From the NCBI GenBank assembly GCA_001803635.1, contig MHDU01000055.1, positions 1 to 61,426 on the forward strand: a stretch of DNA of 61,426 bases, in the 5' to 3' direction. This DNA comes from Nitrospirae bacterium GWB2_47_37. GTDB taxonomy: Bacteria > Nitrospirota > Thermodesulfovibrionia > Thermodesulfovibrionales > Dissulfurispiraceae. Numbering within the stretch: the first letter of the stretch is position 1; each line of letters starts with the position of its first letter. Made by a program: the position numbers and the translations under genes. The notes under the pieces are model-generated. The model was not told where the DNA came from and did no database searches. It was given only the letters and a program-made list of their open reading frames with translations. This document shows positions 5,615 to 58,442 of this stretch, piece by piece.

Positions 5615-5664
5615 CTATTCATTTTAACTTAGAACATCTAATAAAAAACCATGAGAATAACCAT

Positions 5665-5802
5665 CCGAACCGGTAGGGCACAGTATTTCCGCTCATTCTC
5701 GTCCCACATCCTGCGGGACTCCGAGGCACCGGCTCGGTTTCGACATCACGGCGAAACTTCGAGCCGCTGAAACCGCTACAATACAATGCCCTGCCGGTTC
5801 CG
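5665..5802. repeat. Palindromic element, long form with internal segment (copy 1)
   Basis: The ends are inverted repeats (CCGAACCGGTAGGGCA at the left, TGCCCTGCCGGTTCCGG at the right). The outer parts, GGCACAGTATTTCCGCT (5677-5693) and CCGCTACAATACAATGCC (5773-5790), match in reverse complement the two halves of a compact 40-base palindromic element at 29900-29939. Here a ~79-base segment separates the halves, and CCGCT stands at both junctions like a 5-base duplication. The internal segment is itself foldable (GTCCC...GGGAC, and GGCTCG...CGAGCC). No protein-coding role is supported. Confidence 0.65.
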
Positions 5803-7126
<1,324 letters not shown>

Positions 7127-29899: not shown

Positions 29900-29939
29900 G
29901 GCAGGGCATTGTATTGTAGCGGAAATACTGTGCCCTGCC
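29900..29939. repeat. Compact 40-base palindromic element (copy 2)
   Basis: GGCAGGGCA and TGCCCTGCC bound a 40-base unit. Its reverse complement matches the two outer parts of the interrupted element at 5665-5802, with no intervening segment here. It lies 80 bases upstream of leuC, between divergently transcribed genes. Confidence 0.65.
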
Positions 29940-42664: not shown

Positions 42665-44053
42665 TTATCTCATTACTCCGACGCTCCTTAACTTATTCAG
42701 TATCTCATCGCCCATCTTATACACGTCTCCGGCGCCGAGGGTTATAAGCACATCTCCTGATTTAAGCTCTGAGACTATCTTTTCTACCATTTCCTTTCTG
42801 TCGGGAATATAATACGCGTCCTTCCGCCCTGTTTTATTTATCATCTTTAAAAGATTGCCTGAATTTATTCCATCTATGGGTTTCTCACCGGCAGGGTATA
42901 TGTCCATCAAAAACAATCTATCCGAATTATCGAAACTCGCAGAAAATTCATCCATCAAATCCCTTGTCCTCGTATATCTGTGAGGCTGGAACAAGATAAA
43001 TAGCCTGTTTTCGTTAAAACATTCACGGGCCGCCTTGAGAGTAGCCTGCACTTCCGAGGGATGATGACCGTAATCATCAAAAACCTTTATACCGTTTACA
43101 TCACCCTTTAATTCGAATCTTCTGTGAATTCCGCCGAAACCGCAGAGCGCCTTTGAGATGACTTCCATAGGGATCTGCAGTTCTATGCCTACGGCTATCG
43201 CGGCAAGGCTGTTCAAAACATTATGCCTTCCCGGCACCGGCAGGGTAAATGTTCCCAATGAGTTACCTTCATGCACCGCCTCGAAAACCATCTTAGCGCC
43301 GGAATGCCTTATGTCCCTCGCGTAAATATCCGAATCTTCGGACAATCCGTAAGTGATGAATTTTCTCCGTATGGAAGGGATTATCTCACGGAGATATTCG
43401 TTCTCCTTACAGACAACGGCAATGCCGTAAAAGGGTATTTTGTTTATGAATGAAATGAACGCGTTTTTAAGCGATTCCATGTCCTTGAAGAAATCCATAT
43501 GCTCTTTATCGATGTTTGTTATTACGGCGATTGTGGGATTCAATTTCAGAAAGGAGCCGTCGCTTTCGTCAGCCTCAGCAACAAGATAATCGCCCTGTCC
43601 CAGCTTCGCGTTGCTTCCCATGGAGTTTAGTTTCCCGCCTATGACTACGGTCGGATCAAGCCCCCCTTCTCCGAGCACCGTAGCTACTAAAGAGGTAACG
43701 GTCGTCTTGCCGTGCGCTCCGGCTACCAGGATTCCGTATTTAAGCCTGCCGAGTTCCGCGAGCATCTCCGCCCTCGGAATCACCGGAATAGACCTTTGTT
43801 TGGCTTCGACAACCTCCGGATTGGCCTGAGAAACCGCTGATGATATAACGACTACGTGTGCGTGGTCGATATTGTCGCCAGTATGCCCTATATATATTTT
43901 TATACCGAGGCCCTTAAGCCTGTTGGTCGTTTCGGATTCCTTGATGTCCGAGCCGGTCACATCATAGCCGAGATTGTGCAGGACCTCCGCTATGCCGCTC
44001 ATCCCGACCCCGCCTATGCCTACAAAATGAATGATCCTGTATTTATTGAACAA
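42665..44053 (-). CDS. murC: UDP-N-acetylmuramate-L-alanine ligase
   Basis: 462 residues. The start is a TTG with GGAGG seven bases upstream; no in-frame ATG is available before the GIGGVGMSGIA nucleotide motif. ATP site: GAHGKTTVTSL. Central and C-terminal Mur ligase domains include NIDKEHMDFF, GIHRRFELKG and DDYGHHPSE. It adds L-Ala to UDP-MurNAc. Located 13 bases after murG. Confidence 0.95.
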   Translation of the reverse strand: MFNKYRIIHFVGIGGVGMSGIAEVLHNLGYDVTGSDIKESETTNRLKGLGIKIYIGHTGDNIDHAHVVVISSAVSQANPEVVEAKQRSIPVIPRAEMLAELGRLKYGILVAGAHGKTTVTSLVATVLGEGGLDPTVVIGGKLNSMGSNAKLGQGDYLVAEADESDGSFLKLNPTIAVITNIDKEHMDFFKDMESLKNAFISFINKIPFYGIAVVCKENEYLREIIPSIRRKFITYGLSEDSDIYARDIRHSGAKMVFEAVHEGNSLGTFTLPVPGRHNVLNSLAAIAVGIELQIPMEVISKALCGFGGIHRRFELKGDVNGIKVFDDYGHHPSEVQATLKAARECFNENRLFILFQPHRYTRTRDLMDEFSASFDNSDRLFLMDIYPAGEKPIDGINSGNLLKMINKTGRKDAYYIPDRKEMVEKIVSELKSGDVLITLGAGDVYKMGDEILNKLRSVGVMR

Positions 44054-44066
44054 CGCATTGCCTCCG

Positions 44067-58277: not shown

Positions 58278-58442
58278 GGCAAAACAGGTATGGATGAAAA
58301 GCCTTTAGCGGCGATACCTTAGAGCCGAACCCTCCCGCCGTTTAAGGGCAATTGCAACATTACTTTTACATTAAACAATATAAACAGGCATCTAATAATC
58401 TTATCGCATTGATAAAGGCTTTGAAACCGTGCCTGTTTTGCC
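58278..58442. repeat. Inverted-repeat element (MITE-like), 165 bases
   Basis: 29-base imperfect terminal inverted repeats: GGCAAAACAGG...AAGCCTTT at 58278-58306, and its complement at 58414-58442, with weaker pairing continuing inward (GCGATA). It lies between bioF and the lipoprotein gene. It contains no coding frame. A structured RNA is the main alternative. Confidence 0.55.

Follow-up and report, generated by a model that had tools for sequence, protein, structure and literature searches.

The window, the whole 61,426-nucleotide stretch of DNA analyzed here, comes from a 2.47-Mb Nitrospirae genome (G000) and contains two palindromic repeats, a long form at 5665-5802 and a compact one at 29900-29939. 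A preliminary description had proposed that the two are related in reverse complement, and comparison places them in one repeat family, the reverse-complemented arms of the short form agreeing with the long form at 21/23 positions on the left and 22/22 on the right. The internal segment of ~79 bases with CCGCT at both junctions, also described there, indeed occupies 5694-5772, between CCGCT at 5689-5693 and at 5773-5777. On the plus strand, the long form is ordered as arm, GCTCATTCTCG, P2 hairpin, CTCCGAGG, P3 hairpin, CCGC, and arm, with 5667-5687 and 5780-5800 forming the palindrome proper. In the following list, A1 denotes an alignment of 40 copies chosen by hand from 48 extracted, and G001 and G002 are congeners of G000.

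5629-5666, plus strand: outer left flank, an imperfect terminal inverted repeat similar to flanks elsewhere in the family.
5667-5687, plus strand: left arm of P1, GAACCGGTAGGGCACAGTATT, with copy-specific outer bases.
5689-5693, plus strand: left CCGCT junction, continuing into the conserved CGCTCATTCTCG.
5691-5701, plus strand: core part 1, GCTCATTCTCG, with 10 columns invariant in A1 (GCTCATTCTC) and one nearly invariant.
5701-5719, plus strand: P2 hairpin with its loop around ATCC, covarying, Watson-Crick at pairs 2-6 in 396/445.
5719-5726, plus strand: core part 2, CTCCGAGG, conserved in A1.
5730-5766, plus strand: P3 hairpin, CGGCTCG...CGAGCCG.
5773-5777, plus strand: right CCGCT junction, the join point of the CCGCT-type short form.
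5780-5800, plus strand: right arm of P1, AATACAATGCCCTGCCGGTTC, pairing with 5667-5687 except at C.A, A.A, and T.G.
29900-29939, minus strand: short form, its arms joined at one CCGCT, without core; the orthologous site in G001 also holds a short form.
44053-44066, no strand assigned: site without the element in G000; G001 (L115) and G002 (L318) carry a copy.

Folding of the long form with its flanks (5645-5822) yields -64.9 kcal/mol (z -4.6), a stability equaled by none of 200 shuffles. A covariance model built from A1 (R1) recovers two members in the window and no others at E<=10, one at 5676-5791 on the plus strand (E 7.6e-30) and one at 29904-29935 on the minus strand (E 7.6e-5), the latter with 84 core positions skipped. 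Similarity between non-orthologous copies reaches, in the better pairs, about 35-50 nt outward from the core on each side, and left flanks also match the right flanks of different copies (50 alignments, a few of them orthologous, most ending at 20-55 nt). Because these flanks resemble each other beyond the palindrome, the whole may form an imperfect inverted repeat as long as about 185 bp. Copies of a second type carry the core words GCTTCATTCTCG and CTCCGAAGC, a paired change.

Other repeats lie in the same DNA. A second, intergenic repeat of ~188 bp occupies window positions 5825-6012, with arms at 5833-5879 and 5959-6005 that are 72% complementary, and has 8 copies longer than 100 bp in 840,167 bp of the genome. 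Four of these 8 lie less than 200 bp from one of 14 element copies, a neighborhood that makes up ~0.9% of the DNA, in a control that takes all DNA although both repeats are intergenic. At L305, the ~188-bp repeat is absent from the G002 orthologue, and the same apparently holds for the window copy (L050). A third repeat, of ~160 bp (58280-58440), has 5 copies in the same 840,167 bp, none less than 200 bp from a long element copy and one ~12 bp from the short form on contig C1 (L154). Besides, a small palindrome, ATGGCAGGGCGC...GCCCTGCCAT, at L333 (about 1150-1190) and L305 has a loop that appears inverted between G002 and G000.

The preliminary description expected many family members in the genome, and R1 gives 33 matches in G000 at E<=0.01, together with 99 in G001, 42 in G002, and 29 in G012, which belongs to another genus. 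These counts are possibly lower bounds, since at most 150 candidates per genome were scored (150 of 774 first-look candidates in G000), and copies within a genome share subfamily ancestry. A BLAST search of G000 with the 79-base segment alone, a query that retrieves its own subfamily only, gave 11 matches, every one belonging to an element copy, either full or truncated. Across the phylum, the core pattern occurs in 81/395 Nitrospirota genomes, at 0 to 75 per genome, and a reversed-pattern control gave 1 match among the matches listed. Within one genus (g6), the numbers are 0 in G007 (one contig), 19 in G019, 11 in G027, and 1 in G030. Some single matches in Nitrospirota genomes are likely due to chance, and three genomes share one 41-base match without a difference. 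A collection of named genomes carries the pattern in at least 115 stretches. Among the 80 matches listed, 41 are titled Nitrospir- or Thermodesulfovibrionales, and the other listed carriers include Latescibacterota, Gemmatimonadetes (Gemmatimonadota), Desulfobacterota, Desulfobulbaceae, Desulfurivibrio, Desulfospira, Desulfarculaceae, Omnitrophota, Spechtbacteria, and Parcubacteria, the Omnitrophota copy (L256) falling below the arm threshold. One carrier available in culture is Desulfospira joergensenii DSM 10085 (L231). Three matches in genes (L196, L216, and L238) look by eye like chance, and a viral collection contains the pattern in 1 stretch.

Arms are present in 97/113 named-genome copies, 24/25 in G000, 44/44 in G001, and 24/26 in other relatives, with a median length of 19-21 bp; the 16/113 named-genome copies in which arms were not found include the three chance gene matches. 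The outer arm sequence varies from copy to copy, while the arm pairing score has a median of 14, compared with 5.5 when the right flank is taken from another copy (n=189). In P2, the 396/445 Watson-Crick pairs at positions 2-6 come from 89 of 105 distinct named-genome P2 hairpins, those long enough, and when pair 1, which is fixed by the search pattern, is included, 90.8% of pairs are Watson-Crick in the named genomes versus 47.1% (maximum 52.8%) with halves exchanged between copies. In the host order (74 distinct P2), the corresponding values are 91.9% and 55.8%.

Mismatches in the arms are biased by strand. Read on the plus strand, A.C outnumbers G.T by 105:30 in the named genomes, 37:6 in G000, 55:6 in G001, and 36:4 in other relatives, and A.C-rich copies outnumber G.T-rich ones by 56 to 7, 17 to 1, 33 to 0, and 21 to 1 in the same order; a plus-strand A.C mismatch is a G-U or G-T pair on the minus strand. 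The minus strand is the more stable one in 85/96 named-genome copies, 23/24 in G000, 44/44 in G001, and 23/24 in other relatives, and, in the two copy sets also folded with DNA parameters, in 88/96 named-genome and 44/44 G001 copies. Among the copies listed, 35 have titles other than Nitrospirota, and 27 of these have arms; their A.C:G.T ratio is 22:12 (12 copies versus 4, binomial p 0.08), and folding stability favors the minus strand in 21/26 (Wilcoxon p 0.0007). Within A1, P1 (A.C 52, G.T 6) and P2 (14 and 2) carry the bias, and in the P3 stem it is reversed (G.T 26, A.C 8). The bias is therefore strong in Nitrospirota and suggestive but weak outside it. Because the mismatches of both the arms and P2 are strand-biased, the minus strand, which reads CCTCGGAG-P2-CGAGAATGAGC and is the better folder, seems to be maintained in a foldable state.

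The origin of the arms can be read at site 1, the junction of two co-directional genes, examined in 11 genomes. By eye, we take these genes to be pyruvate-dehydrogenase-like. Seven genomes (G000, G003, G005, G007, G009, G017, and G034) are empty, a single nucleotide (1 nt) separating stop from start. In G001, the complete element and its two arms lie between the stop and start codons; in G012, that point holds a degenerate remnant, and G041 has a different ending. Since the empty genomes have a single nucleotide between the genes and the G001 element includes the arms, the arms came in with the insert at this site. On its left side, the insert is shorter than the stretch over which flanks of copies elsewhere resemble each other. 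G002 (L335, contig C288) has a different, unrelated insert, which contains CCCCCTTTATAAAAGGGGGA-like repeats and directly precedes the conserved end of the gene. At the second site (window 44053-44066), the empty state of G000 could instead be due to deletion, and deletions could account for some of the empty sites. At two sites, no target duplication longer than 2-3 bp is readable, and the element ends are not sharp.

If the core inserted into the tips of palindromes or terminators already in place, each copy would have its own arms. The arms do differ between copies, some look like A-tract/GC/T-tract stems (L063 and L068), and YPAL repeats are reported, in the available text of PMC2229807, to target areas of dyad symmetry. 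However, the empty site 1, with its 1 nt between stop and start, offers neither palindrome nor arm and contradicts this route there, and the segment is found only inside copies (11/11 matches in G000), leaving this origin very unlikely.

For the two CCGCT copies, the preliminary description left open whether a small element had entered an older palindrome with a 5-base target duplication or whether the short form arose by deletion between the repeats; our results speak against the former and for the latter. A genome-wide search with the segment alone found none outside the palindrome, all 11/11 matches being in full or truncated copies. Junction 5-mers are equal in 13/24 G000, 18/44 G001, and 9/24 other-relative copies, and in just 5/91 named-genome copies and 1/26 copies outside Nitrospirota by title, so that equality is a feature of the host lineage and not of the element. 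Because the segment was seen only within copies and the 5-mers are rarely equal in the named genomes, CCGCT is not a target duplication, and because the arms, too, are missing from the empty sites at site 1, insertion into an older palindrome is unsupported. A CCGCT duplication would fit the arms shared by long and short forms, also at one orthologous site, as well as the frequent equality in G000, but not its rarity elsewhere nor the joint occurrence of core and arms in many lineages, and is hardly credible. Thus, when the two junctions of a palindrome share a short repeat, that repeat need not be a target duplication.

Deletion between the repeats is supported by an orthologous pair, a short copy in G002 (C264:12305, L450) and a long one in G001 (C31:8424, L102), whose sides align over 1,024 and 1,020 bases (85% and 93%). 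The ~79 extra bases of L102 are the core between CCGCT repeats, and 6 bases overlap where the two sides meet; together with the junction equality, this pair is best explained by deletion between repeats, and we infer loss of the core rather than gain. The short-form pattern ATTTYCGCTNNAATAC, which detects only the CCGCT-type join, was sought in 14 genomes and matched 8 times; palindromic arms accompany 6 of these matches and are lacking from two (L447 and L451). Other reduced forms occur as well: a deleted copy joined elsewhere than at CCGCT (C78:12398-12480), a core-less palindrome without CCGCT (C10:29597-29625), and several half copies in the genome of the window. The short copy of the window is old, since the orthologous site in G001 is likewise occupied by a short copy.

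Orthologous occupied sites (27 comparisons, 20 distinct sites) hold the element in the same orientation at 12 and inverted at 8, one of the latter (L328/L152) being ambiguous to read, with two copies in G002. Cores are 0.89-0.98 identical at four inverted sites (L316/L114, L052/L050, L319/L070, and L145/L120) and 0.67-0.79 identical at the other four. At two of the latter four, L307/L100 and L331/L104, a type 1 core by eye faces a type 2 core; L319/L070 combines an inverted core with nearly unchanged outer arms. At L320/L131, orientation and core (0.95) agree and the outer arms have changed on both sides. Inverted cores may reflect either inversion in place or repeated insertion. A neutral account, in which template-switch correction during replication keeps the arms complementary with no selection, would produce both the two-sided arm changes and the apex inversions at fixed sites; it predicts neither the strand bias nor a core common to several phyla, and we consider it distinctly improbable.

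Copies are mostly intergenic, at a median distance of about 20 bp from a gene. Of the 189 with arms, 14 fall within ORFs (crude caller) and 169 between two ORFs, and for these 169 the folded strand runs antisense to the two neighbors in 75, sense to both in 42, and mixed in 52. A riboswitch or untranslated-region element was dropped as a candidate, given the mixed orientation to genes and the inverted copies at some sites.

The strand bias and the concerted arm change would also fit selection for an RNA in place, that is, dispersed functional RNAs (sRNAs or sponges) made from the minus strand, with mobility secondary. To the strand-biased pairing and the two-sided changes between orthologous copies, such as L320/L131, can be added the GGA in the apical region of P2, CsrA-like loops present in 65/74 distinct P2 of the host order. 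Nevertheless, GGA occurs in just 39/105 named-genome P2, orientation to genes is not fixed, 8/20 orthologous occupied sites hold inverted copies, and Rfam 15 offers no credible match: there are 0 matches to the window at gathering score, 0 for 7 named loci at E<=0.1, and for the 7 loci at E<=1 a single match, to a miRNA model (0.26), far below its gathering score. Overall, functional RNAs selected in place strike us as a rather unlikely origin.

A search of neighbor-gene clusters and Y1 regions found no mobilizing gene for the element. The 12 clusters of neighbor genes listed contain no transposase by eye, the largest by raw size comprising sensor/regulator and ABC genes. An element of REP/REPIN type moved in trans by a Y1 transposase (RAYT or TIRYT), with the minus-strand P2 and its 5' GGAG as the REP, would have its enzyme at hand in much of the host order, where Y1_Tnp is found in 94/140 genomes, as well as in G001, G002, and G012; GGAG stands directly 5' of the P2 hairpin on the minus strand, and recognition of single-stranded DNA would yield strand-specific pairing. 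In contrast, G000 has no Y1_Tnp match despite its 33 copies, only 2 of 20 Y1 gene regions contain a strong element copy, 1.1-1.2 kb from the gene, most of these Y1 genes have, by eye, inverted repeats of their own (for instance, GGGACACATCCC), and conserved and variable parts are opposite to those of a REPIN. We therefore rate this source of mobility as fairly improbable. With a strong copy in only 2/20 regions, at that distance from the gene, a RAYT/REPtron-like linkage was rejected as well. One of the two, L406, also has an interrupted copy adjoining the gene, and at L406:1320-1427 a Y1 gene with its own inverted repeats seems, by eye, to lie inside the P3 hairpin of an element copy.

Taken together, the best explanation, which we consider likely, is a non-autonomous mobile element with a strand-biased foldable structure and a length of up to about 185 bp, its mobility being supported by dispersal, by copy numbers that differ strongly between congeners, and by absence from orthologous sites. 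A trans-acting enzyme would recognize the folded minus strand, as single-stranded DNA or RNA, by its core and not by conserved ends, and the strand would then be inserted between genes. After insertion, the arms would diverge in concert, and the apex could flip or be swapped. Short forms such as 29900-29939 would arise at the base of the hairpin, where the two CCGCT repeats allow slippage. The putative enzyme might act on single-stranded DNA, a tentative assignment that falls somewhat short of probable, or, as we think unlikely, on RNA. A broader proposal is a multi-phylum class of mobile elements known by the fold of the apex and not by the ends, in which a structured strand is inserted together with its complementary arms, the ends are free, and the mover is an enzyme not previously assigned to any small element; we regard this proposal, enzyme included, as doubtful, slightly more so because the strand bias is weak outside Nitrospirota. 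A core of ~20 bases with hairpins kept across several phyla, variable arms, and strand-biased pairing makes recognition by structure testable, and hundreds of natural variants could be used to find the recognizing enzyme.

Among known systems, integron attC sites are recombined as a strand-specific folded single-stranded DNA with a copy-specific stem, and carry boxes of the consensus RYYYAAC/GTTRRRY. The element shares the strand-specific fold and copy-specific stem, and the box pair RYYYAAC ... GTTRRRY was found in 0/189 copies. In a limited search of the open-access REP and MITE literature (PMC3733652, PMC8266576, PMC12306157, PMC2229807, and PMC3116915), the available text does not describe the core, and of the core words only CTCCGAGG and CCTCGGAG appeared among the matches listed. 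Small bacterial palindromic repeats are, as far as the available text of reviews goes, mostly defined by conserved ends and found in one or few genera.

Correia/NEMIS, ERIC/RU-1, RUP, and YPAL/RU-2 are presented in the available text of PMC2229807 as small non-coding intergenic inverted repeats with a long stem-loop and no gene of their own, each named for one or few related genera. The element resembles these bacterial MITEs in being short, non-coding, and dispersed, with inverted-repeat ends, and in its insertion polymorphism (site 1 being empty in 7/11 genomes). It differs in that its ends vary, its apex is conserved, and it spans several phyla, and in that neither a TA motif nor a clear target duplication is readable. 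REPs and REPINs are described, in the text available from PMC3116915, as dispersed hairpins with compensatory changes in part of the hairpin and a possible single-stranded DNA form, REPINs having both ends conserved and a spacer that covaries. The element is likewise a dispersed hairpin with compensatory changes, but here the core is conserved and the arms are variable, and no linked RAYT flanked by cognate repeats was found in the 20 Y1 regions. According to the available text of PMC3733652, REPs carry an unpaired GTAG/CGTC tag at one end, and TIRYT elements are tyrosine transposase genes flanked by terminal inverted repeats. Y1 genes with flanking inverted repeats occur, by eye, in the same genomes as the element, although those repeats look unrelated to its own. 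In this sense, the element resembles a MITE or a REPIN turned inside out, with the apex conserved and the ends variable: it is MITE-like in behavior and REPIN-like in fold, with the conserved and variable parts trading places, and is a new, patchy but widespread variant of small palindromic mobile DNA.
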